This document shows, piece after piece, positions 1,788 to 51,930 of a DNA stretch of 64,000 bases (the stretch's first letter is position 1; every line of letters starts with the position of its first letter). The translations under genes and the position numbers were made by a program. This DNA is from Magnolia sinica (taxonomy: Eukaryota > Streptophyta > Magnoliopsida > Magnoliales > Magnoliaceae): positions 104,945,759-105,009,758 of the forward strand of contig NC_080578.1 of NCBI RefSeq assembly GCF_029962835.1, read 5' to 3'. The notes beneath the pieces are model-generated. The model did not search any database, was not told the DNA's origin, and saw nothing but the letters and a program-made list of their open reading frames with translations.

Positions 1788-4700
1788 GGAGGGCCGGAAG
1801 GTATGGCTCTAAATTTCCTTTTGGTGAAGTGACTTGTATTGATGCTGAGGATCTACCTTTACTTCATTCATCATTGGAATCTCCTTCTCCTGTTTTGGAG
1901 GTGATTGTTAGCTACCCCTTCAAGTATTCCAATAGGTTTAATATTCCTACACATGCAATCATTTTTATAGAGTTGTTTCTGTACACACAATTATGTACCA
2001 ACTGAGACTTGGGTACACACATTAATGCATGCATCACACGTCTTTTTCTTTTCTACCTTTCAAACAAAAAAAAAAGTCTTTATTTCCTGTTCACTTCTGA
2101 AAACAGTTGACATGTATATGCAATTGGCTTTGCCTTGAAGTCTAACTTTGTTGGCATTGTAGTGAATTCTTATATTTTGTTTCTTTCTTCAGTACAAGAT
2201 GTTCGATAAGCAGCCAAACAATGTCTACAAGGGTCCAAAAGGTCAATCAATAAGCTGCTAAATTGCCACAGAGAGAACCCAAATTATCACAATAGTGTCA
2301 TCTTTGTTTGCTAACTAGTCTGCTAATGAGTTTGCCAACAGCATAGCAAGCTGTTAAGCCATCTTTGAAATTAAAAAAATGGAATTGATAATAGTAAACC
2401 CTATGCCTATAAAGTAACAAAAATGAAGGCATCTCAAGGACTGGCATCTCCATTGGAGATGGGACTCATATTCATTTTTGGGAGGACTCTTGGTATGGGG
2501 AGAGTCCGTTGGAGTTGTAGTTTCTTTCATTGGCAAGATTAGCCCCATCCAAGAACATGTTCGTGGCTACTTGCTACTCCCTTCAAGGTAGCAACGGTGC
2601 TTGGTGCCCCCTTTTTTGAAGGGATCTATCTGATGAAGAAGCGGCCAAGTATGTTCAACTATTGGAGTGACTTCAAACATTCATCTCTCTCCAGCCTGAA
2701 AGGATTCTCCAGTTTGGAATGTGTCTCCATCGGGGAAGTTTACAGTCCAGGGTTTTTACAAATTGATTCGAAAGCCATTGTCCTCTCCAAGTCAGGAATT
2801 TTTTCATGGATTTTGGTTCTATGGAGCTCCAACCAAGGTGGCAGCTTTTGCATTGTTGGTCAGGAGAAGGAGAGTCTTAATGGTAGGCAACCTTTAGAAA
2901 TGGTCTATGGTTCCTCCCAATACATGCCTCATGTGCATGAATGACGCTGGTTCCTCCCAATATGTGCCTCATGTGCATGAATGATGCTGGTTCCTCCCAA
3001 TATATGCCTCATGTGCGTGAATGATGCTGAATCGATAGACCCTCTCTTCCTCCATTGCACCTTTGCTTAGGATGTAAATTGAGGACTGTATTCTTTTCTG
3101 CTTTGACCTTTGTCTTAGTGGCTTATTAATAAAATTAATCACTTACTCTTAAAAAAAAAGATGCTCCTGTCAAGGAGGATATTGAAGAGTAGTAAACATC
3201 TAATAGCTGATCACAAAGTTCTAGCATCTGATCGCAGAACATTAAAACCTAACAAAATTGCTTTCTATGGCTTCTTTCCTGCTTCTTACCTAACTAAATC
3301 CATCCTAATAATCCTTGGGGTTTGTACTTACGTTATCCATGTTTTATCTACATCCTCAATTGACATCATGTGATCTGGTCAACCGAAAGCTCTTGATTTT
3401 TTGACCTTTTTGGTGATTTTATAATTTTTAGCCATTTTGTTGATGTTCTGGTAGAAGGGGAAATAGAAGTTGCTGATTTTCCTATGTGTCTTGATCTGTA
3501 AAATCAGTTGGGTCTCTCTATCATGTAGGTTTAGAAGGTGCCTAGTTAACAAAGGCTAACGACTCATGATTCTACAAAATTTTGGGTTCGCCATGTGATA
3601 TTTCTCCTGCATATCCATGCCATGTGTAAATCTTTGTATATACAATAGAAGATACTTAAAAGAAACCCTGAGAAAGAAGAATGAAGATCATAGACAGAAG
3701 TACAATTTTTTGTTGTTATGTGAGGCTCGTAACTGTAAGATTAACTCCAATATTTTGTTTCTAAATTCATAATCTGAAAATGGAGAGGCAGTTGGTCACT
3801 TCATTCAGAAGAACTGTGCCTCCGCATCATACTCTCCATAAGTACAAGAGAAAATCATAAAATGAAAGCTGGGTGCTGAACAAGGTGAAACTATACTCAT
3901 TTTTCAAGTTTTGTATTATAGTCTATAGATATGGTTAAACCATGTAGCTATAAGGGTTATGCTAATGTGGATGTAATCTTTGGTGCAATTAAAAACAGAG
4001 TGAATGTATTCTTATGGCCATTTTTATTTTTGGAATATGATTATTTAACTATTCCATTTAGGGTCTTTAGATTGACATCATAGTTGTACTTCAATTTTAT
4101 TATGCAATCAGTGCATGCTACATGTCCTTGTATTCTCTCCTCAGAGGCATTGGATTTTGTTTGTGCAGCGTGCTGGACTGTTTCCGACCTTTGATCTCTT
4201 GTCTTTGTATTCACGTTTACACCCAACGTACAGTTTCCACAATATACTAGTAAGTAACAATTTCAATATCTATTTTTCATTAATGTTTCAGAATTGATTG
4301 CATAGATTGATACTGATAATTATATGCTACATTGTACAAGTTTGAGAATGTTTTTACAAAAAAGTGATATGGTTCCTTTTTTATTTTTTATTTTTCATTC
4401 ACTGGGTACTCTAGATAACCGATGCAAGGCTTGGCTTCCTGGGAACAGCCATTCTGGCTTGTTCTACTTCTTCCTCCTTTTTTGAGGATAGGTAGGCTGG
4501 GTTCGAACTCAGGACCTCGATGTTGCAACATGCCCTAACAGTGAGCTACGGGCTGAAACCCTGCAGCCTTTCTTGCTTTTGCTATTTGCAAATATGAATC
4601 TTTACTCATATGTGTTGTTGTCTTCCTTTCCAATGTTTCTTCATATATGGTTTGAAGTTCCAAGCATTTTTTACACATTTTATTTATCGGAATTGGCGTA

Positions 4701-7700
4701 AAATGGTCTTCAAATGTGCTTTTACCAAACCAAAATTCAGTACAGCTAAGTGACAGCCATACACTTGATACTGCTGGATGTATTTTGGTAACTTAAGATG
4801 TCCTTGCATCATTTTTCATAATTATGCTCATTATAAATTGATAACTTGTTTCACATTTTGCTAATTTTCTATTGATAATAATTTACCAATTTTATTGGAT
4901 TCAAACTTTGTATTGAACAATTCCTTTTGTAGTTCTGATTAAAGATATTTTCACGAAGAAATAAAAAAGAGAGACATCATAAGATCCTTGGAAATATCCA
5001 AATCATCAATATATTGTCGTGATAATCTTTGTTACCATGGTACATCATGCATGGGCATGGATATGCCGTCGGGATGTTGTTTACAATTAAAACTTGTACT
5101 GACATTCATGATGTCGATTCTTGTTTCCATTTCCTCTTTATTTTCATGCAATTTGTGTGGAGTTCTAAGCTACCATCACATGCTTACTTTCGTGTGTTGG
5201 TAACAGTTTCAGCACAAAAGGTTCTGGAGTCTGGACAGGACTTCCATACTTTAATCTATTGAAAAGTAATCTGGAAAGAGTACTGGTTGGTTGGTTTCAT
5301 TCCTGTAGGTTGATGGTAGACAGGGTGTGTTTCAACATTGATGTCTTGGGTTCGACCCACCTTACCTATGGAAAAAAAAAAAAGAAAAAAGAATGTACCA
5401 TTTGGTTGGATTTTAACCAATAGCTTCAATGTATTGTGAGGAATTACTTCTCCTCAGGTTGACTGTTAGGGATGTGTTATGTAAAAGTTATTATGGTAAC
5501 TTGTTCACTTTTTCATATGAGTTTGGACTCATCATTGGAGCTCCTAATTTTTCAGCCACCGATACACGGTGTGGATCACCTGATGAGTGGGCCATTTGAA
5601 CATGCCCCGGCCACAAAGCAAGCTTCATTCCTTGTATGATTCGCTTGTTAAATGTGGATTGCTGATCCATTTTCTTCCTACACATTTGGTCCATCTGTTG
5701 AGTGGATCAGCCTGATTTTTGGGCCAGACAACAAGCTCCAACTAATGTATGGTCCATGCGAGAACTCACAATGTGCCTAATTGTTAAGTATGCACATGCT
5801 TACAATGAATGTGAATATTTTCTTATCTCACTAGATGCTGAGGCCTACTAGACTGGTGGAGAGAGAGAGGCGGAGTTTGACTTTTTAGCCATGGTATATG
5901 TTAAAGTCCCTTGATATACATTGATACACCATCCTCTAACGGCTCGAGCTTTTAGAGCAACTGATTGTTTGACAGTATATACTAATACAACAACGTAATC
6001 ACCGGATGGATGATTGGATGGCCCAAATGGACATGCCTTGACCAAAGTGCATGTGCCACATGTGAGATCTCTCATGTGTGCCAAGTTGGTGAATGTGTTG
6101 TACTAGTACACTGAACATTGATCCTTGCTCAATTTTAAAATCTCCGCTAATCCTCAAGTAGGACACTCAGCTAATTGGCTTTTTTTTCTACTCACAAGAC
6201 TCATGACACAGTAGGGACCAGTGAACTACTAGAAGAATGGTCCATGCTGAAAAGAAAGCTCCACTCTCATTCGATGGATGACAAGTTTATGTTGTCATTA
6301 TTTTCTACATGTCCATCTTAAAGATCTATAAATAATGTCTTTCATATGCTTTAAATTTTACATTATTACCTTCTTGTTATGCAGGAACAGTTCTTAGAGA
6401 AGGCAAAATTATCTCCAAACTATTTCATTGCTAATTGTGAAGAAATGATGGTATGCAGTTTCTCTTACTGGTTTGTTTATCTGCATGCTCTTTATTGCCA
6501 AGAACAGTTTTTATAGTTCAGCTTTTCACCTGATGGCAATCAATTTAAAATCAAACTTTTCCGCATTACTGTTACGATGCATAGCGTGAGGATTTCCACG
6601 ACAAGTTCTTTCACTGCACAGCCATTTTCATTAACGAACCACATTCTACTGACAACAGAAAGTTGCTGCTGTTATTGATGAGTTGCCTCTTGTGTTGCGA
6701 GATAAATACCTTTTCTGTATGAGGTAACCATTTGTTTTCTCTAGGTTATCAAAATTCTGTCAAAATGTGTTTTTTTTTTTTTCTTCTTCTTTTGTAGGAG
6801 CTTGTATAAGTAGATACAGGATGCATTAGTGTTAATATTAGACATGGACATGAGGTGCAGGCACCACAACCCTGTTAAATCTAATACATTGACTTGTAAA
6901 TACAATGTGTGATAGACTGATAGTTTATATAAATGCTACGTCATAAAAGTGATGTGCCAGCCTGTCCCAAGCCAAGGTAAAGTCGGGTTGATGGTAGGTG
7001 GGCAGCCTGTCATCAAACCTTTTACATTCAAAGTTCATAAAGCCCTTGTCCCAACTAATTGTGGTTGGCTAGACAAATCCTATTCCACTATTCCATTCCA
7101 TTAATGACCGTATGTTAAGTTAAACCATAGGTCATCAAATCTTTTCTTACTTCCTCTCCCCATATGTCCTTTTGGAGCTTCCCCTTGCTCTTTTAGAGCC
7201 TTCGACTGGAACCCACTCCCAACCATTGCACATGGCTGGACTATCCAAGTCTACTTTCCCTTATCTTATTACCTATTGGTGCTACTTCTACATTCCCTCG
7301 AATGCATTTTTTGTCTATTTATTTCTTCCTAGTCTCGCTGCTCATCCATCTCAACATCCTCACTTCAGCTACACTCATACTAGGAATGTGTTGTTCATTG
7401 GCTGCCTAACATTTTGCCCCATAAAGCATGGCTGGTCTTATAGCTATTCTATAAAATCTCCTCTACAGTTTGTTGGTATGCAGTGATCACATAAAACTCA
7501 GAGGCACATCTCCACTTCATCTGCCCACATATAATTCTACGAGCAACATCCTTCTCAATCTCTCCGCTATCGGATTTTTTTTCTTCTTCTATGGGGTAAA
7601 GGAATTTTATTGAGAAGAAGCTGGCAGAACTAGCAAAAGAATACAAAGGAGAAAAGCAAAATTACAGCCCAAAATAGATTTTAAAACATAATCAGTTACA

Positions 7701-10700
7701 TATTTTAAAACGGAGCCCCTTCCACTATGATTTTCCCCACATCTGACTCCTCCGGGCTGGCTTTGTTTTGAAAGCATTGACTGTTCAACACCACCCCCCA
7801 ACACACACACAAAAATAAAAAAATAAAAAAAATGAAATGACCCACCAAATGGCCAAGGTGCCGAACTTACCTGCCTATCCTTTCCACCCATCCACCATGC
7901 CATGCCTGAAGAAGCTTGCCCACAGACATTGGCATCACCCACTGCATGTCAAAAAGAGCTAGGAAGTGTGCCCCCACCTTATAGGTGGAGGGGCAATGGA
8001 TAAACAAGTGATCAAGGATTCCACCGCCTTCATGCACAAGGAGCAAATGTCTGGGATGATCATAGCCCCTTTTTGGACATTGTCTATCATCAGAACTTTT
8101 TCCCCCTCTACTAGCGAAGACAACACAGCTACCTTGGGGGACATCCGTAAAACCAAAAACGGAAGGCATGAGCCCAAGAACTGGCAAGTCTTTTTGCCTG
8201 AATCATCTTGTAAAAAGATTTAACCGAAAAGTGGCCTGAGCTGTGAACGTGCCATATCATAGAATCTTTGCCTTTGGAAGGAGACTGAGAGGATTGAAGG
8301 CACTCCAACAGATGAAAGAAGTTGGCTAGCTCCCCTTCCAACAAATTTTTCCAACAAGGAGGAGCCCATATGGTGGATGCACCACACTTGGAGTAACACT
8401 CGGCCACTTTGATCTCTCTGTTAGGGGCCGAGCATGCCAAGCTAGGGAATTGGTGATGCAAGAGAGTATCGCTGCACCATGTCTTTACAAAATTTGACTC
8501 TCGAACCGTCATGTATCAAAGAGGAGATGCCTTCTCTTAGGTGGTGCTTCAAAGAGACTATCGACTTCCAAGTGTTGGAGGCCCTTTATAGGGAGGACTC
8601 TCTCGCTTCTATGAAATTATAAGACAAACAAAATCTAAATAAAAGGATTAGACACCATTGATGATTCCCCTCCATATTGTGGGCCCTGTTGCTAATGGAG
8701 GGTAGCCCAAACTTGACACTCATTGGACGATCTTTAGCTTGTTGACACGTACAGCTGACCATTTCATTTTACTGTACACTTGATAGCCACCAATTGGATG
8801 ATTAAGATTTTCAGTCTGTGTGACATTTTGGGCTCTGATCAATCCATTATGGGTCCTGTGATTTAGATGAATGGGATTGACATGCATATATGTGGTGTGG
8901 ATGGTGGATGAGACAACTTTTAAAATGGCACCGAACTATCTCTAAATAAATAGGAATAGATTTAAATTATATTTGGATGGACAGGATTGACATCCATACA
9001 TGTGGAGCATGTGGTGGATGAGACCAGTGTTCGAAATATCGATACTATCGGCCGATATATCGGCCGATATTATCGTTATCGCACCCATGCGAGACGATAC
9101 AACCCCGATAACCCCCGGAAGATATCAAAAAATCCCAATTTCAAATGTCGGCCGATATATCGTCGATATCGCACGATATTTCGACGATATCGCGCGAGTT
9201 CCTCAAAAAAATCGAAACTATAATTATCCGAAAAAATTGAAAAAAAAACCAAGAAACTGGATTTCGGTACCTGTACAAGAGATCGTCATCATCGAAAGCT
9301 TCCATTTGGTGGGCCATTCCAATCGAAGCTTCTTTCGTAGGTTAGTGCAAGCAAAATCTTCGATTTGGGAGAGAAATTCGTCAAAATCCGAAGAAATCCG
9401 GGTATTTGGGCGACATTGGGGGAAATCCTCGTCAAAATTTGGAGAATCTTCGCCGGAATCCGAAGATTTGGGAGATTTGGAGGTCGGAATCCGAAGATTT
9501 GGGAGATTTTGGGGCCGGAACCCCCTCTGCTTAGAAAAAAAAGGGCGTCCGGCCCTGGTTTTTGAATAGGGTGGCATCCGCATGAAATCGGATTGCGTAC
9601 TGAGTTACTCGGTGCACTCTTATCGTACTGAGTAAACTCAGTTGGGCCCACCTTGAATGTATGTGGTCTATCCATGCCGTCCATACGTTTTTCCGGATCA
9701 TTTTAGGGGTTGATCCCAAAACCGAAGTATATCAAAAGCTCAAGTAGAACATACCAAAGGAAACAGTGGAAATATTGATTTCCACCGTTGAAACATTTCA
9801 AAGGCCCCCAGTGATGTTTATTTGTCATCCAAACTGTTCATAAGATCACATAGACATGGATGAATGGAAAAAACAAAAATCATCTTGATCTAAAACTTCT
9901 GTGGGCCCCCAAGAACTTTTCAACGGTAGACTTCAATTCACATCATTTCAAGTGGTGTGGTCCACTTAAACTTTGGATATGATTAAATTTTGGTTGAAAG
10001 CCCTAAATTTATATAATAAGGCGGATGTACGGAGTTGATACAATGCATGAATGACAGTGAGCCCCACAGAATTTACTCAGTACGCTTAGCGTACAGAGTT
10101 ACTCAGTACGCAATCCGCTTCCGTACCACACACCACCGACTGGTGTGTTGACGTCGTCACCCAGTTTTGTGGGTCCCATCATGAGGTATGCGTTATATCC
10201 AAACCGTTCGTCCATTTGGTGAGCTCGTCGTAAGACTTGAGCCACAAAATAAGACAGATCCAAAGATCAAGTGGACCACACTGAAAAAAGCAGTGGAAGA
10301 TTAAAGGTCTACCATTGAAACCCTTTTGGGGTCACAAAATTTTTGATCGATATGATATTTGTTTTTCCTCATTATCCAGATTTGTGTGACCTAATGAATG
10401 GATTGGATGAAAAATAAACGTTATGGTGGACGTTATGGTGGGCCCTACAAATGTTTTAACGGTGAGAATCAGTCCCCACAACTATTTGTGGTGTGGTCCA
10501 CTTGAGCTTTGAATATTACTCATTTGATCTAAAATGATCTCTCCAGATGCATGAACAATATAGATATAATAAATACATTACTGTGGGGCCCATTTCACTT
10601 TGAATCGTTCAGACAACCTGAGCGGGAGGAGCGCCTGCGACGGACGCAAATTTCCTGCGAAAGACTTTCGCATTAAGTTCCTGCACTGGGAACTCAGGTG

Positions 10701-13700
10701 GGACCCATTGTGATGTTTGTGAGAAATCCTATCCGCTCATCCGTTTTGTGAGTTTATTTTAGGACATGATGTCAAAAATGAACCGTTTCCAAAGCTCAAG
10801 TGAGCCGAAAACATGATAATTGAATGTCCACAGTTGAAATATTCATGGGCTATGAAAGTTTTGAATCATACTAATATTTGTGATTTCATTTCATCCCTGT
10901 TGGAATGAAGTTATTAATGGTATGGATGGCACGTAAACATCACTGTCGAACTCAGGTAGGTTTCAACGGTAGGAACTTCCCTAACCACATTTTCCTTTAG
11001 CACGGCCCACTCAAGCTTGGTTCATTTTTGGCATATTGTCTTGAAATGAACTCACAAAACTGATGGAAGGGGAGGATTTCTCACGAACATCACAGTGGGC
11101 CCCATTTGGGTTCCCAGCACAGGAACTCCATGCGAAAGGCTTTCGTAGGAAATCCACGTGTGTGGGGTGGGAACGACGTAGTGAGTAAACTTTGTGGGGC
11201 CACTATAATTCATGTATTTTATCCGCTCCATCCATCCATTTTACCATATAATTTTATGATTTTAGCCCAAAAAGTGAAGCATATCCAAAGTTCAAGTGGC
11301 CCACTAATGGTCAATCACCATTGTTTCCTATGATATGGTCTACTTGATTATTGGATCTGCTTAATTTTTTGCATAATGTCCTAAAATGATATAGAAAAAT
11401 AGATAGACGGGTGGATACTGGATATAGTTGTCTTAGTTCAATCGGACAGCGCAGAGCTTAGGACCCTCTACAAAGGAAACCTATTATGTGCCATTCTTTT
11501 TTGAGATTTTATGATTTAAAAGTGTGTATGGAGGTCTTTTTTAACAATCCCCAAAGTTTCATTAAAAAATTCAACCATTTTCCCAATGTTTCCCCATATT
11601 TCCCAAAAAGTGCGATAAACTATGCGATACAAACGATATATCCTGTGCGATAACCGATACATATCTGTATCCCAAGGGTGCGATACATTGTGCGATACCG
11701 ATATTTCGAACACTGGATGAGACAACTTAAAAATGCGCTGAACTATACCAACAGAAATAGGAATGTATGTGAACTAACACCAAACAGAAAATAGTCATGT
11801 CCATGTGTTTCTTAGCAGTGTATCTAACATGAAAAGTTTTTCTAAGAAATGGATTATCCTTTTTTCACATGGGTGGGAGTTAATGATAGAATATTTTCAT
11901 TCATCTATTTTAAAGTACAGGATGGAGAAATCCATTACAAATAGCATGGAAACACTTATCATTCATCTAGATTTATTCGGTTAAATACCATACTGCCCGT
12001 CTGCCCGTGATTATTTTTTCTCTGTTCTCAAGTCTCTCACCCTTTCTTGCATTCGCTCTCCATTGCATTGGCAGAACAAAAATTTCTGATGCATCAATAT
12101 GGAAATATCGGTTGAGCGACGGCCCTTCCACTCGGCACCATTTGGTCTCTTAAGGCCGCTTTTGTCCCTGCTTGACAGGTTGGTCATGCAGTCAAGCGCT
12201 CTGCTGCCCTTTCACTTGAGGGCCAATCTCTAATCTGTCTCCTTCTTTGGTCCAAACCAAGAATTCAGTTAGATATGATGCAAAATGGATCTCGTTCTAT
12301 CGTGACATAGATTCTACATCAGGAACCAAGCCAACTTTGGAGCAACTTTGTGATAATGGAATCAACCAGCAAAAGGCATTAATGCTACATATCCGATTTG
12401 GCCTATGTACGAACATGCAAGCACATGTTTCATGCTTGTTTGAGTAATAGCAATGAGTTTCCCCCAATATCATGCTGGGAATGGCTAGAATTTCCAGCCA
12501 TAGACTAAAGCTACTTTTGATTCTGCAATATTTTGTTCATTGATTTCTCCAAATTCTTTCATTTCCATGTAAAGATCATTTCTTTCACTAGTAAGTTTGC
12601 CTACTCCGAAGGGAAAGAGATCGAATCTAAAAGATCTCTCTCCAAAGATTCCCAATTGGTCCATATAAAAAATCATTATAGAATAATGCAGAAATTTCAA
12701 TAGAAAAGGAAAAAAAAGGGTGGTTTGTGAGGATTACTTATGCATGAAGATAACAAATTTGGTCGTTGCTCATATTGGCTTCTTAAATTTGCAGCCCAGT
12801 TGACATGAATGATGATATTTCCACCCAGGGCCTCATACAGGTGATGATTTATTCTACTTTCATCCCTTTGTCAGATTCTTCTTTTGAATGAGTAAATAAC
12901 AGAACCTGTTGTCTTGAACCAGTTTGCAGAAAGCTATTCAAAGAAAGGGATTGTCCGACTTAAAGAAATATTCACTCCTGAGACACTCCAGGTCCCAAAA
13001 TCGCAGGATGAGCTGAAGGAGCTCGAATCTGTTCACAAGGTAATATCATCCTTTATTCTGTTTCTCTTAAGAACTGCTCATGGTGGCTTAGTTTTTGTTT
13101 TTTTGTCAAAGCCAGATGTTAACCCAACATCCTTGTCTTGGTACTCAGGGTTGTCACAGCAAGCAGAGAGGCTCAATCCCACCCCAAATTATGAAAAATG
13201 TTGTTACCCATTTAGGGTCTGTTTGGGTAGGGATCCTGCATAATTGGGATTAAATCTAATCCCGATTTTGGTGGGACCCATGCCTTCCATGTAGGATTCA
13301 CTGCACTAAAGTGGTCCTCTCCTCATCATAAACACAATTAAGGAAGTTTTAGAGAACCAAAAATGCCATTAGTTGCATTTGTGCAGAGGAAAACACCTCT
13401 GTAATGTGGCCAATTCTACATGGAGGGCATGGGGCCCGCCAAAATCAGGATTATAGTTAATTCAAATTTTGTAGGATCCCGTACTGAAGTGGACCTTTAG
13501 AGAACTTATAAAAGCCTCCCCACGTTCCATGAATCGCAAAATTAGCATTGATACTTGCTTTCATAAACAATTACCCTTTACTTATAGAAGATCAAAATAA
13601 AAACTACTTCATAGGTAGGTTGCACTAGCAAAATAGAAACAAAGGATTTTTGTTCTATAACAAAAAAAAATCCTACCTTTTATATGTCAGTTAGTCGACC

Positions 13701-17600: not shown

Positions 17601-17970
17601 CCCTCCTTCCTTCCTTCTCTTTATATCAACGAGCACATGTGGCAATACTCATGCATGCAAAACTAACACTGACTAACGTTGTGCCGATATTTGAGCCGTG
17701 CATCAGGTGGACCGCACATGAGATTGGAGCCAGGAATGTGCCGAAAGAATGAATGGGATGGTTTTAAAAAAATACTTGTGTGAATGTATGGCTTAATTGA
17801 AGATTGGGCCACCCAAATTGTACAGCTAGGGTATCTACGGTTTTGATGGGGCTAAAGTCGTGTGGCACAGTCACATGTGAGAGTGCTTTAACACGTGAGA
17901 GTTGAGATATACGAAGATTGCGAACCCGATTGCTTGATGAGCCCAGCATCACGGATATACCTGGGGATTG
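14685..17970. other. SUV3-RDM1 intergenic region, repeat remains
   Basis: No gene is seen. It holds the SUV3 3' UTR, a SINE at 14785, an AGTCGA/ACTTGG-word element at about 15695-16127 (ends GAAGTTCTAAAAC and GTTTTCAAAATTTTGAAC), a T-run plus TAA microsatellite at 16571-16615, and a 17020-17235 element made of ACCCGA/TCGGGT and CCAACC words ending in TTGCACCCCTAG. Confidence 0.5.
14785..14912 (+). mobile_element. tRNA-derived SINE
   Basis: It shows an A-box-like TGGCTCAGTGGTGTCAC, the shared GTTTCAACACTGAAGTCATG, a B-box-like GGGTTTGAGTGCCC and an A-rich end at about 14895-14912. It lies about 100 bases downstream of the SUV3 stop codon, so SUV3 transcripts may run through it. Confidence 0.7.
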
Positions 17971-18472
17971 GACTCTGTGGGCCCACCTTGATGTATGTGT
18001 TTTACCTACATCGTTGAAACATTTGGAGACTGAATAAACACCGTTGAAACATTTATATGGCCACAGTAGTTTTGCATCGAGCTAGATTTTTTGTGTTTTC
18101 TGTTCATCCTAATGGGAATGACCTTATAAACGGTTTGAATGTCATATAAAAACAGAGGTGGACTTTTAGACGGTTTCTACTGTAAGAATTTCTTACCTCA
18201 CCTTTTTACTTGCGTGACTTTCTTAGGTTTTTGATTAGCCTCAATTTTAGTATCATGTTCTGATAGGAGTTGATAAAACGGTTGGATGAGGTGAATTTGT
18301 CACAAATATCGTGGTAGACTTTATCGGCACTGTTTTTTTATGGAATGGTCCATTTAAATTTTGAGTCTGCCTCATTTTTATTTTTATTTTTTATCATGCC
18401 TTAAAATAATATAAAAAATAGATAGACGGTGTGGATAAAAACATACATCATGGTGGGGTGGGGCCACAGAAC
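17971..18472. mobile_element. Foldback MITE, GGGCCCACC family
   Basis: The left end GACTCTGTGGGCCCACCTTG, then ATGTATGTGTTTTACC is repeated inverted at 18435-18472 (ACATACATCATGGTGGGG). It ends immediately before the proposed first exon of RDM1, so it may form part of that promoter region. Confidence 0.8.
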
Positions 18473-18479
18473 TTTGCAA

Positions 18480-36737: not shown

Positions 36738-36784
36738 AGCTGATGATAGCCACTGTCAGTTCACACTTCACTGTTAGCCACCCC

Positions 36785-36870
36785 AACCAGGGATCGATAG
36801 GAAGGCCTCAGCGTTGAAACAAGGTATCTTTCACTCAGTCTACCACTTGAGCTATGGATCAGGATGTGTT
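36785..36870 (-). mobile_element. tRNA-derived SINE fragment next to the YS1 start
   Basis: The minus strand reads CATAGCTCAAGTGGTAGACT (A-box), then CCTTGTTTCAACGCTGAGGC, in the same layout as the SINE at 55160. It lies 48-133 bases upstream of the YS1 ATG and so within its leader or core promoter. Confidence 0.6.
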
Positions 36871-37052
36871 AAGTAATGCATCGGTTACCACCCATACAAT
36901 TAGAATTACGAATCCCCTGTGTCGGGCTGTTTGAGATCGATACACCCATAACGTTCATGGTCGATACATAACAGTATTGGGTGATACATACTGGTTCCGA
37001 ACACACAGATTGTTGCATACTGACACTGCCAATAGCTACTTGGACAATGCCG

Positions 37053-39507: not shown

Positions 39508-42500
39508 TCATGGCAGAGATGTTTGTAAAACGGATTCCTTGCGCAGAGTCCTTGATATTGCACGGATAGTATTTGGAGTCGTTCTGCAACAGCCTCCTAT
39601 GAGGGAAGCTCCAACTTCGCGCCATTTGCTGACATAAGAAATGAAATCTTCATCCGAAACCTCCGTAGATGCCTTCTAGCAGGAAAGAAAAGAAAAGAGA
39701 AGTAAAAGGATTTTCAGTAACGTATGTTGAAAGCATTTTCTGGGCATCTAAAATGCAGAATTACATGGAAATTGGATCCATGGCACTAGCATCCTAGACT
39801 AGTTAACTAAGACCATAGTTCAAAAACCCAAAAACTCAACTGGAAGTCTGAGACAGGTCAGGTCGACTCGATATTTATAATTATATTAACAAGAAGAGCT
39901 TCAGTAAGTCCACACGTTTACAAGACAGATAATGCACAGGCGACCACATGTGCCAGCATGGCATGCAGGTGAAATATCAAAATCATTCATCATGATGACC
40001 TCACCATGTAGATGCCATTGCTGAAAGATAAAAGTTGTCTCGCTCAGTAGGTGTGTCATGACGTTAGAAATAAGTGGATGGATTAGAAAAGTTTGGCCAT
40101 TTTTTTCATAACTGTACATTTGTTCAGTTAATTGTGGCCCACCTAACTAGTGGACTGACATGATCCTTGGGATAGGGAATCTATATATTGGGACCCTTCC
40201 AATTAATAGCTTGGGTATTACACCCATGTGCAACACTAGCATGTGTGGAATGTGCATCATCATCTGACTTGTAAACACGTGCAGGCTTGGCAAAGCTCTA
40301 ATAAGAATGTTTTGAGTAATAATAGATATTTCATTTGTTATTGAGTGTAAAGTTAACATGTATGATACATGGTTACAAAACATGCGAATGGTGTCATGGG
40401 TTCAAATTTCAGGCTGCCCTATAATTATTATACTAATAAGCAATGAGCCAGTGAGTGACTCAGCTTGAGTCATGTTGAGCCGCATTAGTCAACCGAGTCA
40501 GCGAGCTGACTCAACAAGTCAGGCCGAGTTGTGACCCAGTCAAGATTGCCATCAAGTTTCTTGGTGATTTGGCTTGAAATCTTGTCAAGTCAAGTCACTG
40601 AGTTTTAAAACTATGGTTAAGACTGCATTAGTACTTTGTAGATGTCGGGATGACCGAGTGGATTGGGAGACGAATTTGATGAAGGAACATGAGTTTAATT
40701 CAGCAAATGGCCATCTTTCGATGCATCGTTGAACTGAATTGTGATGTTTAGATCCACAAAAGAAATCATAATTAGGATTCTTAACGATGGGATAGGATTC
40801 AAGTTGCAATTACATTACCTTCAAGCTGGACTTGAAGGAATACATCTGCAATCTCAGGGCTGCCTATGATACTAAAAACAAGTACTATGGAACGCCCTCT
40901 TATTGAACTGAGTTTCACAATTCAATTCAATTGCACATCCAAACACATCCTTAAACAATGATCAAGGAAAAAACTCATCTATCATTTTGATAGCCATCTA
41001 TATAGATGAGCAAGAGATTGGGGTCATCTTAGAAACCCATTGCACAAGAAATAAGAGCCAAGGAGATGACATGATCTGTATTTGAAAACAAGAGATTAAG
41101 ATAGAAGTAGTACCAATACACCTGGTTACCCTTGAATATTTGTTAGTTTTCACTGGCCTATAGTGATTTTGGACACGGACAATTCAAAGTTGTTGAAGCC
41201 ACTTTTCGCGGACCATCATGAAAAAATCATGCTAACTCGAGATCATAAACATTAGAACAATGGCCTCTATTGGTATAACCATCCAATTGAAGTAATTCTT
41301 GAGAGAGACAATCCAAGGTGGAGTGAACTGAAGGAATAATTAGGTTGATGATCTAAGCTTCGTTCGATAAACGACCTAGGCCATCTGTTCTATAGGGCAT
41401 TTAAATTTTTATTTTTATTTTTCACGATGGTCCATGAAGAGTAGGCTAGGCCTAATGGATGGTTTAAATCAGTGGTGGGATGATCCATATGTCCAAAAGA
41501 GCCAGGGTGCACAGGTAGATGTGGCATCAGTGCCGTGTGTCATAGTGCTAATTAGGCCCATCAGGTTTAAAGCAATTGTAATGGGACATCAAAACCATCC
41601 TCAGGTGTCCAGCATGGCTACCTCCAAAAGTATAGACAAGGGGACATTTTTGTACACTCATAAAAGAGTTAAAGAGAATAAGACTAAACAAATGATACAC
41701 ATCATGCAAAAACTATGCAACACCTATGTGAAAACCCAAAGAGTTAGGAAACCCACAAAATAAAAAGAAAGGAAAAGATGTTACATGCAACCTATTGTAT
41801 AAGAAAAATGTCAAAAAAAGAAAGAAAGAAAGTAAACCCTAGAACTAGATCCAGGGGGAGCAGTTGCCTATGAATAGTATCCTGGGACCAAGAGAGTGGA
41901 GATGCGCTTGAGTGCAAGCAAGCAATGATAAAACTTCATCTTAACAATAAAAGCCCACTTAACAACAAAGGGGAAAAAAAAGAGGAGGAAAATATTACAA
42001 AAAAAACGATAATCAACACAAGACCTCATGTGAAGTGTCCAAAGCATTCATGATGTTTTGGATGACATAATTGAAATATTGGTGCGTACATAACAGAGGT
42101 GGATAATATATTCCTCTAGAAATTTCACCTTTCTTCCTATTGTTTAGAGTTCTGCAGAGTTGCTCAAAAGTTTAAGGACTCAACATGTGCACCGGGGAAG
42201 AATAGTAGCACCAATATGTAATAAGATGAGGGAAAGTAGACTTAGATGGTTCATATGCGCAACAAAGACCAAGAATTGCCCCAGTTAGGAGTGAGTTGGT
42301 GCAAGTTGAAGGCTCTAAAAGGGCAAGGGGAAGGCCCTAAAAGACATGGGTGGAGGTAGTAAGAAAAGACTAGATGACCTATGGTCTAACTTAGTTATGG
42401 TGGAATTGCAGAAAAGGATTCGTAGACTACTTTCTATCGAATCTAATTAATAAATCCAATTTTCAACTGGATTCGATAGAAAGAGAGTACATTTCTGCAC

Positions 42501-45500
42501 AAACAAAAGGGAATGATTTGGACTCAAGAAAATTCTGCCGATAATCTACATTACTCCCCAAGTCTTTACCAGACTTGGCAAGTTGTATCAGTTTGGCAGA
42601 GTCGAGCACTGAAGTGAATCTTAGAGCCCTGATTAACATAAAAACTGAACTAATAATTCAACTCATAGGTCCAAAAATAGAAGCAATTGCTCAGAATGTA
42701 TTCAAAAGGAGGAAAAACTCACCACCCACTCCTTCCTATCTGCATCGTACGTCTCCCCACTATTTGGGTATATGAGGATTGGTTTGTCTGTGACCTGCAA
42801 GATAAATAACGCCACACAAAAAAAGACCACCATGTTAGGACTGTATTTGTATTCATCTCAAGAGTAAGAACAGTATTTCAAAAGCTGGGAATCATATGCA
42901 CAAGAAAAATTATCAGAAAATTGGCAACTACCAGAAAAAAAGAAGAAGATTCAATGGCTAGACATACAACCCTCTTGTAAACTGTGCATTTTAAAATCCT
43001 TAGATGCCAGGTCTAAGTGTTCAAATGCATGAGTTGATTTTACAATTTCTAGGCAGTAGAATATTAAGAGCTTATATAACTGCAGAGGGATAAATGCTAT
43101 TAGCTTACAATTGATGAAACTATTGTAAAAATTGCTAGTGTTCGCTTTTAAGAGTTTCAGCTTTTCAACTCCATTTTACTTACCTAAAGCATTGGCATAA
43201 TATCCTATTCCTACTTACAAGTCAATACACTGTCAAGATACATGTCTGCAGGTATTTGGGAACTTCTGCATGTCCACAAATTCAACTTTATTCAACACAT
43301 AATAGTACTCTCCTAGACAAAGCTAACTCAAATATTTCAAAGGAGGAGAACTACATAAAGTGCATCTGTCAGTGATAGAGACGCCACGAGCAATAAGGTC
43401 TTTTGTTTTGAGCCTGGATTGAAGAGCAAACCAAGCGGTGCAGGCGTACTTAAGGAAATTCAAGTTATTCCAAATGAAGTCCACAAAACTCATGGCCCAT
43501 TGTTTAGAAGACTGAAATAGGGAGTTGGAGAAGTGAATTGATCAAAAGGTGCATTCCTCCATGTAACACTATCACCTCGATCTGAAATAGCCTCCTACAC
43601 TGTATCCAGTGAGGGAGAGCATCCGATGGGCCAGTTCCAACTGCCATTAGAATGAAATTGGCAACTTTAATCTCTCTTTCCTCCCCCCAAATCAATGATT
43701 GAGCTGCTCCCAAATGTCTCAAAAAGACTAAAGTCATTGACCAAGGATCATGCCATAAGAAGAAACATCTGCAAGTGCCCAAAATATAAGAAATATAGTA
43801 TTTGATGTGTTGCCTCATGCCGAAGATGCGCTTCCAAATACTGGAGGAACTTGTAGAGCAGGAAATACTTCAGCAGCTTCGCCCTTTAATGTGTTACCCA
43901 TGGATGCAATTGGTCCATGAAGACTTATGAACCAATGCGAGATGCCATAAGAGTTTTGCTGTACATGTCGCATTCCAAGCCTTTAGACTGTTTATGACCG
44001 GACCTCTAAATTCCCTAGGTTTTGCATGTCTTGCTATCTTAACTATGTGGAGAGACCTATTCTCTCAGTCAGCCCCAAGAAAGTTCCAAATTCCCATGTG
44101 ATTTTAATTTAAATTGATTAGATTAAACTTGTCACTGGTTGTAAATCATCCCGCCTACTCTCTTCTTATTCAAGATTCTGGTGTGCACAAGGTATTCAAA
44201 ACCGGTTACGTAATGGCTGTTACGGCTGTTATATAACAGTAATGGTGGGAACAGTTACGCTTTAACCGGAAAAAATGGCCTGTTACCAGGCCAATGCAGG
44301 TTTTTTGGCTGTGGCCGTTACAGCCGCTGTTACCATTATTGAATACCATGAGTGTACATGTTGAAGAAGCTAGAATGATCTAGATGCACATTTCTGTGGG
44401 GAGGGGGGCCCACAAATTCCGCTTCATAAAATTTAAAATTATTTGCCTTTTCCAATACTTGATTTTTCAATAAAGTTCAAGCTGCATTAAAAAAATGATA
44501 CAACAACCAGAGCTCCTGTCGCACACATGCACAATAAATGCTGAAGTAGCATCTTCTCAAGATGTACAGCAAGTTTTAATTACATAACTATGATCTCATT
44601 CGAGTTTGGATATTCATAAGAAAATGCACACTATGAGCATAACATGGAACTTTTGCTGTGTCTTTTAGGTTCAATAAGTGACACTTCATGCACGCATTTA
44701 ATTTGCAAATACAATTCCGACAATGAAAGGATCATACCTTCTTAATGGAGAGAATCATTCCATGGATAAATCTAGGAGAGGTGCAGTTGATTCCAACGGC
44801 GACGACCTTCTTACATGAGTCAGCAATGGAGGCACACTCAGGCAATGAATCTCCACTAACCACATTAACACCATCATTCGAATTGAAAGAAAACCACGCA
44901 GGAATCTTTATGTCATTTTCTTCAAGAAGCTCAACATATGCCTAAAAAAGAGCACCAGGAGAGATAGGCATGAGGCCATAACAGAAATAGGTTCCCAAAA
45001 AATATGCAATTTTTTTTTTTTTTTTAAATTTTTTTAAATTCATAAATATGTCTATTTAAAAATACAAACATATCAACTTTGGAAGCATGAGATGGAAAGA
45101 AGGATCATCGTCTTCAACAGCAATGCATTATATGGCTCAAGAAAGCAGAATGAGAAATAGGTCATGGGACAGAGAAAGCATAGCTTTATAGGTTTAAAAA
45201 AACAGGAGCTCATGCGTGTGCTATAAAGCTCGTGCACATGCCACGCATGTGCCAGCATGGCATGATAGATCCAAGATCCAATCCATCCATCAGAACAACA
45301 CCACTATATTGATGCCCTAGCTCTGCAGACCTATTCTTGGCATATATGGACCGAAAGAAGCCCGAACGGAAGTGGACGTAGTCCATCAAATTCAGGCCCA
45401 ATCGCATGACGTAATTGGGCCTAGATGCGTCCGGATCGAAGAAAATCATTTTGGATTGAGAGAAATTGGCATTCGAAGTGCGAACCATAAATTAGCCATA

Positions 45501-48500
45501 ACTTTTGATCCGAGTATCGTTACGGGATGCACGACCTGTGAATTTTGACTGGAACAGGTCAACCGACCCATGTAAGCAGGTTGCGTTGCTCTGTTTCACG
45601 AGAAAACGACTCCTTCCTATTCAAAATCGCAATTTTACGGAAAAGAACTTATTATTTTTAGTAAGTTTTAGGTTGGACATATCTCTTTCATCTTAGAGTT
45701 TTAGTATGTGATGTCTTCTTAGGATTTGCTTCCTATCATACCAGGAATTATTCAGCAAAATTAAATTAGAACATTCTATTTTTAGTAAATTTTACTACTT
45801 TGGGTAAGTTTTGGTTTAGTTGAATTATGACTCTTAATTAGGGTTTACATTTTATAATTTAAAGCATTGTAATTTTGTTTTAGAGACATCAATAAAATTA
45901 TTTCGAATTTACCTTTATTTATTGTTGATTCAAGAGTCAATACACCTTTTGGATTCAAGGCTTGCACACTTGATCTTCCTCATTATCTCTTCATGCTCTT
46001 CCCCTGCGTCACTAGCCCAAGAATTAGGTTGATCTACTAGTCAAGTGAGCCACAGTTTGCAAAACAATTGCATGGCTCTGAAAAACTTGGATGAAGTTTT
46101 CTAACCCATCCACATTTCCTACAAGCGATTGGACTAGATTTTATTTTTGGGAAAACATGTACAAGGTCAGATGAACCTGATGGATGGATTAGATCTCGCA
46201 CATGTGTCATGCTAGCACATGAGTGGCAACGACACGAGTTTTGTTACACACGTGAGCTCTAAAGGCTAGACTTTTCATAGATTAGAAAATTACAATGGGG
46301 TAAGAAAGTAAAAAATTCAAAATATTAGATTGTCATCATCATCATAGCCTTGCCCTGCAATTTGGGGCTGGGAATCATTCTCATAATTGACTGGAAAAAG
46401 TCCAATGATCGGCTACCCACCTAATATCTAGGGCTGAAAGTCAGGCGGGTTGGGTTGGGTTGCTGCTCAACCCTAGCCCCAACCAAGGTTCCTATACCTT
46501 AACCCTAACCCAACCTCGAGTTGGGAATTCCCAACCCAAGCAGGCACGGTCGGGTTGGTTGGGTGTATACTTGCTAATATTTTTGTTATTACATTAGTAT
46601 ATTCTATTTCAATACACATCTTATTTTTGTACCTATGATTTTATTAATTATATATGCAGTTATTTATCATAAAGAACTTCATTTTTTTTCTAAACAAACA
46701 AGCTAAAATATATAAAAAATACTCCTTTAAAAGTCATGTTGTGTAGCGTGCAATTTATTTGGGAGAGAGAAATCCGACATATCTTGTTATCTTGAGTCAT
46801 CGGAAATGCCGTGGACCAATGAGACCCGACGGCAGTGGAATTTCCTGTGCCTTCAACACAGACTATCCGCACTCACCCGACGCGACATCAAACCCTCCTT
46901 TAACCAGGCTGCTGACAGACTGGCGCATCGCTACCAAGTGGAGTTTACTAAATTAGATTGTATTTAACTATTTATCATGCGGGTCTCAAGTACAACCTAT
47001 TGGACCATAATTTATGGTCCACCCATCCAATAACTTCCAACCTATCAAGTTTGTGCGCCATCCGATGCTTCCAATAGGTTTTCCTGACCACGAGGATCAA
47101 CATTAGCTCCATCAACTCATTAGGTGTGCCACGCCATAGAAAACAATTTATAGCCATTGAATCAGGTGCTCCATCAACTTACAAGTATGGTCCACTCAAT
47201 GAGTAGATGTTGGTTAATTTTTGCATAATGTGATCCTCCTTAAGCGGAGACAATTGACTGGATTAGTTAGATGTTGTGTGCAAATGAAAGCTTGGAAGTT
47301 ATCTACTGGGTGGACCATAAGTTATGGTTCAACCAGTTGGACTTGAAACCTTCTCTTTATCATATATCATTTTTACTCGATATTTGAAGCAAGCAACACA
47401 ATACAAGCAGGCCAGATGCAAACATCAACCTCAGGTTGTGCTCATGGGTCATGTATTGTTCTTTAATGCAACTTCAGTCAAAATGTGTAGCCCAGAGATG
47501 AAAAGTGGATACAATTGATTTCTGCATAGAAAGATTAAGGGTGTGTTTGGTTTTCCAATTTCCTGTGTAATGCAAAGTAAATGAGCCACCATTATCATTT
47601 CAAGGTATTTGTTTAAACAAGAATTACGGCTCAGAAATCAAAACTCAAAAACACATGTAATGGAAACAAGTAGAGGAAATTATAATCATTACATTTTTAC
47701 ATTATAAAACTATCATTTTTATAGTGATGTCTGGGTAAAACAAACAATGGCAGCAAACTCATCATTGCAGTCAAATGTAGGTGATGTCACCACACAATTA
47801 CAGGAGAAAGTAATCATTACCCATTACCAGCCATTTACCATTGTAATTGAAAAACAAACACGCCCTAAAAGGGGTTGTCAATAGAGCAATAAGTGGGATT
47901 ATATGAATAGAACTTATTAGTGAAACCAAATCCAAATAATAGAAAGCTTGCAAATACCTGAGCTTCGATTTTGTTTGGAATCGTTTCAAAGGCAATCAGA
48001 TCAGCACCTGACTCTGCAAGGACCTGGACTCTTCTCCTATGAAAATCTTTCAAAGTTGCCAATGTAACTATGTCACCGTAGTTCCCACTGCGAGAATTAA
48101 ATGGATCATAAAAGCAAGTGAATCATGCGCACATGGCGCGAGTTTTGGAGTATAAGGTTTTCTTACAAATAGACACCCCTTGTAGCTTTTTTGGACTATT
48201 GAAGTTTAATAAAAATTATGCTTTTTCCTACTCCTCTGAGTTCTTGAGTTGTGGAAATCTAATTGGGTGCGAAGCCCTCCCTTCATCGAAGGGCTAACTA
48301 CCATGGTGCGAAGCCACATTTATCTCGATTCGCCCCCATCCTCTACTATATCTACTTCTCATCTCCTACCACCATCCGTGCTTCAAATCTGTCCTTTATT
48401 GCAGCAATTCTCCTTTCTTCAGCAGAATTCCAGAATCTGGCCTTGCAGGAGGGCTAAAACTTCGGCGGAGCACCACACACAGTTCACATGTCGGATCACT

Positions 48501-51500
48501 ACAAAACTTGGAGGTTTTGAAGCCCCCCTGGCCGACCAGAGCCAAGGAGGCGGTTTCGGGATTCGGACCCCCCCTCGCACATGCGGCCAGGCCCCTGTGC
48601 ACGTGCGTCAGGCCTGGCCTGCTGTCTGCGCACGGGGACTATCTCTAGGTTCAGATTTTCGCCTATTTTACTCCTCTCATGCCTCTTATCCATAACTCTA
48701 ACCCTCGATTGCGTTATTTCAATTTGTTTGCCCCCCCCTCCTTGGGTTTTTTGAATTGAAACTAGTGAATCCCTTGGATTAGGGACTGATTGTTGTGCAT
48801 GTGTGGATGAGTTTTACTTCCCTTTGAGTATCGTTTGGCTCATAATTTTTATTGATCCAGCCCTAACACGTGTAGGCCTGAACCTGCACAGATTCCCCTT
48901 GCTTGAATATTTCAACTTTTGTGTGGGATGTGGAAGTTTTATGTGAATGTTTTTGAATTAGTTTATTATATGAGTAAGTAATCATTACCCATTACCAGCC
49001 ATTTACCATTGTAATTGAAAAACAAACACGCCCTAAAAGGGGTTGTCAATAGAGCAATAAGTGGGATTATATGAATAGAACTTATTAGTGAAACCAGATC
49101 CAAATAATAGAAAGCTTGCAAATACCTGAGCTTCGATCTTGTTTGGAATCGTTTCAAAGGCAATCAGATCAGCACCTGACTCTGCAAGAACCTGGACTCT
49201 TCTCCTATGAAAATCTTTCAAAGTTGCCAATGTAACTGTGTCACCGTAGTTCCCACTGCGATAATTAAATGGATCATAAAAGCAAGTGAATCACGTGAAA
49301 ACACTTGTACATTGATGCTAAAATGGTAAAGAAATGGCCAAAAAACAATTCACCTGTACTCAGAACCATCGGCTAAATATGCCCCATAGCTTCCTATTGA
49401 AGCGGCAACTAATATACGACGACGTTTGGAGACTTTTCCATCCGCAGGGCCATCATGTGGTCCTTCTTCACATCTCTCCCAAAATATATTGCGTGCTTCA
49501 CGTGCAACCTCAACACTTCTCTGCAGTAAAGCTTCACTTTCTTCCCTAGACAAGCCTTTAGACTGGAAACCCTGAATTGTAGCCTGCTTTGACCCATGGT
49601 TGAAATGATCTTAAGACACCATTATCGTGTGAAAGCAAGGGAAAGATGGATGCCCCAAGTACCTGATAAGATGCTGTGATAATGATCTCTGCGCCAGCTT
49701 CAAGGTAATCTAGGTGAACCTGTTTCATTAATGGATATGAAAAATGTATTAACCCTTTATCTGGGGAAGATTAAGGGTTGAGGCATTCCCTCTGAACTTG
49801 TCCATTGTTATGTGGCCCACTTGAGTTTCCATTTGGGCTTATTTTTGGGCCTTGGGTGTAACGTAATGCAACACATCTAATGGACGGATTGGCTGTCACG
49901 AATATATCAAGTGGATCGCACTTCTGCCTGGTACCATCATAGTTTACGGTGGTAACAGTACGACAAGAGCACACTACTAGGAATTAATAAAGTAGAGAAA
50001 TTGACCATGATGCATAGAAATAAATCTTAAAATTAAATGATATGATGGATAAATGTGTCTACCAAGCAAAATAACCATGCATGTATGATACCGGTACCAG
50101 TGCCCGATACAACCAGATACTTTGATGTGGTTCCTTTGTACATTCATATCCTTCTTTAAGTGCCTGAAGGCTGTGTTGGACAGGTTGGGGAGACTAAGGC
50201 ATGAGTTTTTGTGGCAAGGTGCAGAATAGAAGCAAAAGTTTCATATGTTGAAGTGGGATGAGGTGCAAAGTCTTTTCTTTCTTCTTTTTTTTTGGGGGGG
50301 GGGGGGGGGGGGCAGGTATAAATAAACTGGAGGTTATGAATTCAATGTTGTCGGGTAATTGGTCATTGAGATTTGGTTTGGAAGATAGTAGTTTATGGAG
50401 AAAGGTAGGGGTGGTGTGAAAGATTCATCCTTTCATAGGTTTTTGGCACTGTGAAAGACGGTTATCAGTATGGGGACCAAGTTCAAAGAGGGGATTGGAT
50501 TTATTTATTTTTTTTAAATTTATTTATTTATTTGTAAAAGGATAACTTCATTCAAAAGAGAAGGAAAAGATACAAAAGGGGAAGAGAATCTGCTGAAATA
50601 GCAGAAAACTAGCAACCTAAGAAAAGTAAAAAGAGGAGATTGGATTCTCCTTAGGAGATGGTAAAAGGATTCGATTTTGAGAGGATGCATGGACAGTTGG
50701 GAGGGTGCTTCTAGAAGACTTTCCGTGGTTAGCTAGGTTATCCCCAGAAGTGAGCATTCCCATTGCTCGGTGCTATATGGTTTCAGGTAATGCGGTGGTC
50801 TAGTCTCCTCCATGTCAGAGGAATTTACTAGAGGACAAAGAGGATGAGCTCATTCGTATGTTGGAGCAGCTTCATAGTATTTGTCCTTCTTTGGGAGTTA
50901 GAGATGCAATGGTGTGGAATAAAAGAAAAGTCCAGTCAGTTCTCAATTAGCTCTTTCTACGGGTTGATTCTTGAGTTATCTTCCGGAGAGTACAATGGGC
51001 ACACTGCATTCGTATGGCACTATGGAGCCCCCTTAAGCATGGTGTGCCATAATGGCCGTTATGGGGCTGTAAAAGCCGTTATGTGAAGGTAATGGTGTGG
51101 CAACTGTTATGCGTTACAGGATCGTAACGGTCATAAAAAAAATGACCTGTAACAGCCTTACAGGCCCCGTAATGGCCTGTTTCGCCTCGTAACTGTGGGC
51201 ATCTCAATCCCAACTGTTCCATGTGGTGGAGCCCACCTAAGTCTTGGATCAACCTGAGCTTTGTCTTCCAAAGAGAACAGGAGGGTGTGGGCATGATGGA
51301 CGATTGGATGCCATTAAAACATCAAGGTGGGCCCCACATATCAATTAGCACGTTAAGATTCTCCTAGAAACGTTTGTATTGGATCCAACCTCATTGAGAA
51401 ATGGGAACAAAACACACCAAAACATCCATCCACAACTCAAAACCTAAATTTAAGAACTGCAGATGAAAATCAGTTGGTAGAAACTGAAACGACAACATCA

Positions 51501-51930
51501 GACGAATGACATGAATGAATGAAAGAATAAGCAACCGAGCAACTGAATAAGAGATCCAAACCATCGATATGATGGGCCATGCTCACCGGAAATCTCCCAG
51601 AGGGACAGAAACTCGCCAAAAGCCCCAAATTCAACAGAAGAAAAGGAAAGGCAAAAGATCCAACTGGGAGATTTTAGGTACATGGACCATCCATGATAAG
51701 ATCCATCAAATAAACAGTTTGGATTGCAGAACAGAGAAAAAGGAATGAAGGAATGCCTGACGGATGAGGTGAGGGGAGCTGATGAGGCATGTAGCGCTCC
51801 AGAGAGGGTCGTTGAGGTCGGCTCCATACCGCTCCAGCTCCGTAGCGAGGCCACCGTCGATCACGGCCCACCCACCAGCCTCTTTTATGAAATCAGCCAT
51901 TGCCCATTCCCCTACAAATCCCATCTCCAA
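39508..51930 (-). CDS. HMT3: Homocysteine S-methyltransferase, HMT3-like (7 exons, exon 4 duplicated)
   Basis: The enzyme transfers the S-methyl group of S-methylmethionine to homocysteine, making methionine in the cytosolic SMM cycle. Exons on the minus strand: 51930-51757, 49719-49663, 49583-49354, exon 4 at 49255-49126 or 48087-47958, 44941-44738, 42794-42723 and 39675-39508 (stop TGA). With one exon 4 the protein has 344 aa; Arabidopsis HMT3 has 347 as I recall. Motifs: [83 protein letters not shown]. The three zinc-binding cysteines are present: C250 in GINC, and C318/C319 in GGCC. All phases fit. Intron 1 uses a GC donor (CAG then GCATTC). Two exon 4 copies sit in tandem; using both would shift the frame. 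ATG at 51930 is preceded by a TATA box. Closest to At3g22740 by wording ([17 protein letters not shown]). Introns carry LINEs and MITEs. Confidence 0.94.
39814..40615. mobile_element. Non-autonomous hAT-like element, AGTCGA family
   Basis: Inverted ends CATAGTTCAAAAACCCAAAA and GAGTTTTAAAACTATG; flanks ACTAAGAC (39806-39813) and GTTAAGAC (40616-40623) match at six of eight bases, consistent with an old 8-bp duplication. Both ends carry GACTCGA/GAGTCA/TCAAGTC words. It lies in HMT intron 6, 139 bases downstream (in gene order, upstream) of the last exon. Confidence 0.7.
40616..42189. other. HMT intron 6 sequence without clear feature
   Basis: No exon or bounded element is recognised. An A-rich, AAAG-repeat stretch lies at about 41640-42010. 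Confidence 0.4.
42190..42450 (+). mobile_element. RTE-type LINE C-terminal fragment
   Basis: Broken frames read [20 protein letters not shown] then RGRP and KTWVEVV, the C-terminal tail of plant RTE-like LINE proteins. It is the best preserved of three such fragments (the others are at 1262 and 7030). Confidence 0.65.
42430..42483. repeat. Perfect 14-bp inverted repeat
   Basis: CTTTCTATCGAATC at 42430-42443 is repeated inverted as GATTCGATAGAAAG at 42470-42483, around a 26-base AT-rich loop. It lies at the right edge of the RTE fragment. Confidence 0.85.
43340..43960 (-). mobile_element. L1-type LINE fragment in HMT intron 5
   Basis: The minus strand gives [14 protein letters not shown], then [20 protein letters not shown] and CTLC, the zinc-binding segment of L1 ORF2. 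Frames are broken at least twice and both ends are missing. Confidence 0.75.
44191..44347. mobile_element. Short GTAACGG-word element
   Basis: Inverted ends GGTATTCAA and TTGAATACC enclose 157 bp made mostly of GGTTACG, GGCTGTTACGG, GGCCGTTACAG and GCTGTTACC words on both strands. No clear target duplication. Related words recur at 51025-51205. Confidence 0.65.
45250..45990. other. Unclassified repeat-like segment in HMT intron 4
   Basis: A 700-bp stretch contains sequence typical of LTR or leader regions (CGAGTATCGTTACGGGATGC, then an AT-rich part ending near CATCAATAAAATTATTTCG) but shows no paired LTR, primer site or coding part here. Treated as a possible LTR-element fossil only. Confidence 0.3.
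46430..46570. mobile_element. GGGTTGG-word segment
   Basis: A 140-bp array of GGGTTGGGTTGG and CAACCC words on both strands, centred on CAACCTCGAGTTGGG. It looks like the interior of a word-array element of the type seen at 57411 and 61406; ends were not found. Confidence 0.5.
47539..47865. mobile_element. Tourist-like (PIF/Harbinger) MITE
   Basis: Inverted ends GGGTGTGTTTGGTTTTCCAA and TTGAAAAACAAACACGCCC, flanked by the 3-bp duplication TAA (47536-47538 and 47866-47868). It is 327 bp with no coding content. Its right end (47808-47865) was copied along with exon 4 into the second copy at 48976-49033, so the MITE insertion predates the exon duplication. Confidence 0.88.
47808..48125 (-). repeat. 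Exon 4 duplication, gene-distal copy
   Basis: This 318-bp block matches 48976-49293 at all but about five positions. It holds the MITE right end, the intron border, a complete exon 4 (48087-47958) with acceptor TCTCGCAG and donor GTATTTG, and 38 bases of upstream intron. Its exon has Ile at the position where the other copy has Thr (GDIVTL against GDTVTL). Confidence 0.93.
48126..48975. other. 850-bp segment between the duplicated exon 4 blocks
   Basis: Sequence unlike its surroundings: C/G-rich in the middle (48470-48640), with a stretch from 48720 to 48930 that resembles an LTR or leader region of a retroelement. No coding sequence is supported and no paired terminal repeat is seen. It may be a transposon fossil that came in with, or provoked, the duplication. 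Confidence 0.4.
48976..49293 (-). repeat. Exon 4 duplication, gene-proximal copy
   Basis: The second 318-bp copy, with complete exon 4 at 49255-49126, acceptor TATCGCAG and donor GTATTTG. It keeps Thr in GDTVTL, which agrees better with the family (GDSVTL/GDSITL in Arabidopsis), and lies 98 bases from exon 3, so it is the likelier constitutive exon. Confidence 0.93.
50140..50990 (+). mobile_element. L1-type LINE fragment in HMT intron 1
   Basis: Broken frames read [20 protein letters not shown], then KWDEVQSL, then [17 protein letters not shown], the segment following L1 reverse transcriptase. A G-run of about 17 bases at 50296-50312 interrupts it. Ends are approximate. Confidence 0.65.
50502..50629 (-). 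mobile_element. Very short L1 3' end insertion with target duplication
   Basis: A 128-bp minus-strand insertion: T/A-rich tail at the left (50502-50536), then a short LINE 3' UTR-like part. The 17-bp flanks at 50485-50501 and 50630-50646 (AAAGAG, then G or A, then GATTGGATT) match except at one base. It is nested in the L1 fragment 50140-50990. Confidence 0.75.
51025..51205. mobile_element. GTAACGG-word segment
   Basis: Words GGCCGTTATGG, AAAGCCGTTATG, GTAACGGTCAT, CTGTAACAGCC and CCCCGTAATGGCC fill about 180 bp on both strands, like the interior of 44191-44347. No ends were found. The sequence to 51350 resembles half of a GGGCCCACC foldback MITE. Confidence 0.5.

Follow-up and report, generated by a model that had tools for sequence, protein, structure and literature searches.

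A 64,000-nucleotide stretch of the Magnolia sinica genome (NC_080578.1), referred to here as the window, carries four genes in the order SUV3-RDM1-YS1-HMT. SUV3 and RDM1 lie on the plus strand and YS1 and HMT on the minus strand, with gaps of about 5.1, 2.6, and 2.8 kb between successive gene models. The window is plant nuclear DNA, in which the four genes are accompanied by many transposon remnants. An initial annotation had named these genes in this order, and gene models, Pfam domains, and matches to PDB sequences confirm both content and order (Table 1). Of its outer limits, 1788 coincides with the leftmost boundary of a SUV3 exon inside the window, and 51930 lies a few bases from the HMT start codon (51924). 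On the assumption of about 27,000 genes placed at random, the chance that three given single-copy genes would all fall no more than three genes away from RDM1 is roughly 6e-12.

Table 1. Features of the Magnolia sinica window, with coordinates counted from its first nucleotide.
Feature	Coordinates	Strand	Evidence
SUV3 (mitochondrial RNA helicase), C-terminal part	1788..14684	+	gene model, Pfam, SUPV3L1 match
SUV3 exons (n=8)	1788-1900, 4169-4249, 6385-6450, 6659-6723, 12795-12840, 12923-13039, 14417-14508, 14588-14684	+	
RDM1, two exons	19811..31568; exons 19811-19961, 31201-31568	+	Pfam, structure match, splice signals
PPR-E-DYW editing factor of the YS1 type, one exon of 846 amino acids	34197..36737	-	Pfam
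HMT2/HMT3-type homocysteine S-methyltransferase	39508..51924	-	Pfam, PDB-sequence match
HMT exons (n=7)	51924-51757, 49719-49663, 49583-49354, 49255-49126, 44941-44738, 42794-42723, 39675-39508	-	
Tandem copy of HMT exon-4 region	47797..48125 (exon copy 48087-47958); other block 48965-49293	-	97.6% identity
Right flank, coding gene undetected	51925..64000	.	six-frame Pfam

The left edge of the window cuts SUV3, placing the N-terminal part, where the helicase motifs are expected, beyond the edge. The modeled exons encode 225 amino acids, and all internal exon boundaries follow AG/GT. The product contains C-terminal SUV3 domains (Pfam SUV3_C, 1.7e-16; Suv3_C_1, 4.2e-12) and matches human SUPV3L1 at 4.9e-33. 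One SUV3 intron also contains a weak match to a cytochrome c oxidase subunit 5B chain (13353-13457, plus strand; E value of 0.079), and this COX5B-like match was set aside as probably due to chance.

The RDM1 product of 172 amino acids carries a complete RdDM_RDM1 domain (PF09187, 6.1e-67, domain positions 2 to 119 of 119). Exon 2 matches structure 1vk5, that of Arabidopsis At3g22680, at 8.3e-61, and exon 1 was placed solely from splice signals and reading phase. Grape RDM1 likewise has two exons and encodes 174 amino acids (PMC9780290). The single RDM1 intron in the window is 11239 bp long and contains remnants of long interspersed nuclear elements (LINEs), recognized as zf-RVT matches at about 22688-22867 (plus strand) and 26593-26763 (minus strand). 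RDM1 is itself a gene of a transposon-silencing pathway.

The YS1 product combines a PPR tract, an E motif, and a DYW deaminase domain, all detected by Pfam. A comparison confined to a provisional Arabidopsis YS1 sequence gave 55.9% over 816 amino acids, and the location beside RDM1 agrees with a YS1 identity.

HMT encodes 342 amino acids that span a full S-methyl_trans domain (PF02574, 8.9e-81, positions 2 to 282 of 283) and match PDB chain 5dml, of Escherichia coli origin, at 3.4e-71. In a comparison confined to provisional HMT3 and HMT1 sequences, the product was 72.8% to HMT3 versus 57.8% to HMT1; HMT2 is At3g63250. Gene position does not tell HMT3 and HMT2 apart, because one grape gene bears both names in print. 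The donor of HMT intron 1 (51756-51755, minus strand) appears to be GC rather than GT (CAG/GCATTC); judged by eye, splicing at the nearby GT would put the exons out of frame. An HMT intron also contains a weak zf-RVT match, below the Pfam cut-off at 8.5e-05, at about 43347-43499 on the minus strand.

Exon 4 of HMT is present twice. The duplicated segment is 329 bp including flanking intron, and the copies are offset by 1168 bp and differ at 8 positions, 3 of which fall in the exon and one of which alters an amino acid (T to I). At 130 nucleotides, the exon shifts the reading frame when both copies are included in one message, and translation would end at a stop after four codons of the second copy. 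With a single copy, whichever it is, the frame is maintained, and the two resulting products differ by one amino acid. The copies could reflect alternate use, one unused exon, or an assembly error.

Both strands of 14681-34221 and 36760-64000 were scanned with Pfam in six frames, with stops treated as X, and nothing was detected besides RDM1, HMT, and the zf-RVT LINE remnants. Left of 14941, Pfam was applied to two of three plus-strand frames and a PDB-sequence search to all three, while the minus strand was covered over 7000-10002. Within the parts scanned, Pfam detected no fifth gene between the four. Such scans can miss genes with short or poorly conserved exons, because they flagged only one of eight SUV3 exons and HMT exon 1 fell below the Pfam cut-off. 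A six-frame motif search for kinase, CXC, NET1 (KIP1), and proteasome sequences returned isolated chance-like matches, none of them credible, and tRNA and Rfam scans of the window found nothing.

Repeats occur elsewhere in the window. LINE-like open reading frames were seen by eye at about 2.5 to 2.9 kb (plus strand) and 8.1 to 8.5 kb (minus strand), the latter unflagged by Pfam. A tandem repeat at 28149-28421 consists of two 136-bp copies with 97% matches. An 84-bp sequence at 26069-26152 recurs about 290 bp away at 26360-26443 (98.8%), and a diverged third copy lies 20 kb away at 5899-5974 (84 to 86% over 76 bp).

Two Arabidopsis intervals contain relatives of the genes in the window. For these comparisons we take HMT3 to be At3g22740 and Q9LUI6 to be At3g22750. 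Printed locus numbers identify PBD1 as At3g22630 and PBD2 as At4g14800 (PMC11546751), RAF39 as At3g22750 and RAF26 as At4g14780 (PMC4511077), SOL1 as At3g22760, TSO1 as At3g22780, and SOL2 as At4g14770 (PMC9085292, PMC3207858), SUV3 as At4g14790 (PMC4151020), and YS1 as At3g22690 (PMC5680337). The chromosome 4 order by locus number is CXC-kinase-SUV3-PBD. On chromosome 3 it is PBD-RDM1-YS1-HMT3-kinase-CXC. Locus numbers reflect position along the chromosome, and by them the paralogous pairs are collinear with opposite numbering directions; the intervals therefore look like sister blocks. The presence of three paralogous sets in one relative order suggests the same. NET1A and NET1B presumably form another pair in the two blocks, and we take the alpha duplication to be the event behind them. 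Two rice CXC genes were also confirmed by locus number.

The neighbors that the initial annotation had named (PBD1/PBD2, RAF39/RAF26, and SOL1 plus TSO1/SOL2) agree with these printed numbers. Its proposal that the intervals are sister blocks gains support from the collinear pairs, but is stated in no literature passage found. Merging the chromosome 3 and chromosome 4 orders predicts that SUV3, RDM1, YS1, and HMT3 should lie together between PBD and the kinase, and the window has these four together. Genes divided between the two Arabidopsis blocks, SUV3 in one and RDM1, YS1, and HMT in the other, are present here in one run.

Grape provides a second point of comparison. Grape RDM1 (Vitvi05g00537/GSVIVT01018017) occupies 5505841-5509295 on chromosome 5 (PMC9780290), and the next locus, Vitvi05g00538, is the At3g22690-type PPR gene; Vitvi05g00540 is an HT1-type kinase and Vitvi05g00542 is NETWORKED 1A (PMC12279613). 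The grape HMT gene, VIT_205s0020g03860, has a single-nucleotide polymorphism at 5515972 (PMC6312537; the gene is also in PMC7470616), and is called HMT2 in one of these two papers and HMT3 in the other. VviMAPKKK25 (GSVIVT01018020) spans 5521761-5528578 (PMC4511077). Extrapolation from locus numbers would place VIT_05s0020g03860 near GSVIVT01018019-21, between RDM1 (01018017) and approximately the kinase (01018020). Two identifier steps past grape HMT lies VIT_05s0020g03880, listed as a transcription factor by a source whose families include CPP, the CXC family; to read it as the CXC gene would be guesswork, and the comparison excludes it.

The window is very probably a stretch of ordinary plant nuclear DNA, enlarged by transposons, in which an old gene order has survived. 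The block would be whole here and mostly whole in grape. The ancestral order would have been (proposed PBD)-SUV3-RDM1-YS1-HMT-(proposed kinase-CXC factor-NET1), in which we infer the place of SUV3 and both flanks. The Arabidopsis lineage would have duplicated the block, after which each copy may have lost different genes, so that SUV3 would remain only on chromosome 4 and the other three (RDM1, YS1, and HMT3) only on chromosome 3. The order was probably simply inherited, without a functional reason for the grouping. It seems extremely unlikely that selection has kept SUV3-RDM1-YS1-HMT together throughout the flowering plants, for instance because organelle and methyl-cycle functions share chromatin control, or because organelle RNA handling and methyl supply share regulation. 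In its favor, two of the genes belong to families that work on organelle RNA and two to families involved in methylation chemistry, and part of the run recurs in grape. However, the strands are mixed, the genes are spaced 2.6 to 5.1 kb apart with long transposon-bearing introns, the Arabidopsis set is split over two chromosomes, and descent alone predicts a shared order.

The initial annotation had described the window as the undivided ancestral block, and the grape RDM1-YS1-HMT-kinase-NET1A run favors this description. Several observations weigh against an inherited undivided block. Of the genes predicted for the flanks (PBD, Raf-like kinase, CXC, and NET1), Pfam and motif searches revealed none within the window, and the 12 kb past HMT contain no gene detectable by six-frame Pfam; scan sensitivity was limited (one of eight SUV3 exons flagged within 1-14941), and genes of short exons could escape. 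The grape order was assembled from separate papers, possibly using differing assembly versions, and is a reconstruction in which the equivalence of Vitvi05g00540 and VviMAPKKK25 was deduced from position and annotation. SUV3 was not found beside RDM1 in a second genome, the passages of grape literature retrieved by locus-identifier prefix containing no SUV3 entry, and no paper listed by a keyword search mentioned SUV3 together with a chromosome 5 identifier from grape.

The position of SUV3 could be explained differently if RDM1-YS1-HMT were the ancestral run and SUV3 had arrived twice independently, once beside RDM1 in this lineage and once in the chromosome 4 block of Arabidopsis, where the kinase and PBD2 flank it. 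Of the four genes, only SUV3 belongs to that second Arabidopsis block, and the literature passages searched did not reveal where it lies in grape. Such a history requires two separate moves into one small neighborhood, and At4g14790 sits between RAF26 (14780) and PBD2 (14800), inside the sister block. Independent arrival is very unlikely. The window may also be one of at least two copies in its own genome, and would then be well retained rather than "unduplicated," as it had first been called. Polyploidy is common in plant lineages, and this possibility, at somewhat less than an even chance, is compatible with retention of an old gene order. By inference, an undivided block is expected in most plants outside the crucifer duplications, and is hence unremarkable. 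In the literature searched, no prior description of this block was found, and published gene lists holding several of its genes came from animal studies only.

Position as a guide to orthology, also put forward in the initial annotation, holds as support for the gene names, but leaves HMT2 and HMT3 undistinguished. With the window, another genome joins those that have kept whole a run divided in Arabidopsis; by itself it opens no new question. Its use lies in this positional support for gene naming, together with a modest check on which genes were lost from each Arabidopsis copy.

Compared with the Arabidopsis chromosome 3 interval from At3g22630 to At3g22780 (PBD1, RDM1, YS1, HMT3, RAF39, SOL1, and TSO1), the window has the same RDM1-YS1-HMT3 order, taking At3g22740 as HMT3. 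That interval lacks SUV3, and the window showed none of its PBD, kinase, and CXC genes. In the chromosome 4 interval from At4g14770 to At4g14800 (SOL2, RAF26, SUV3, and PBD2), SUV3 has the kinase end on one side and the PBD end on the other, in agreement with the merged order; RAF26, SUV3, and PBD2 adjoin by locus number, so RDM1, YS1, and HMT are missing there. Grape chromosome 5, as reconstructed from the cited papers, groups RDM1, YS1, HMT, a kinase, and NET1A into a single run at about 5.50 to 5.59 Mb, with an RDM1-YS1-HMT order shared with both the window and Arabidopsis. The grape block is more compact, with about 23 kb from the start of RDM1 to the end of the kinase. Set beside these genomes, the conserved four-gene run is ordinary plant microsynteny and not something new.

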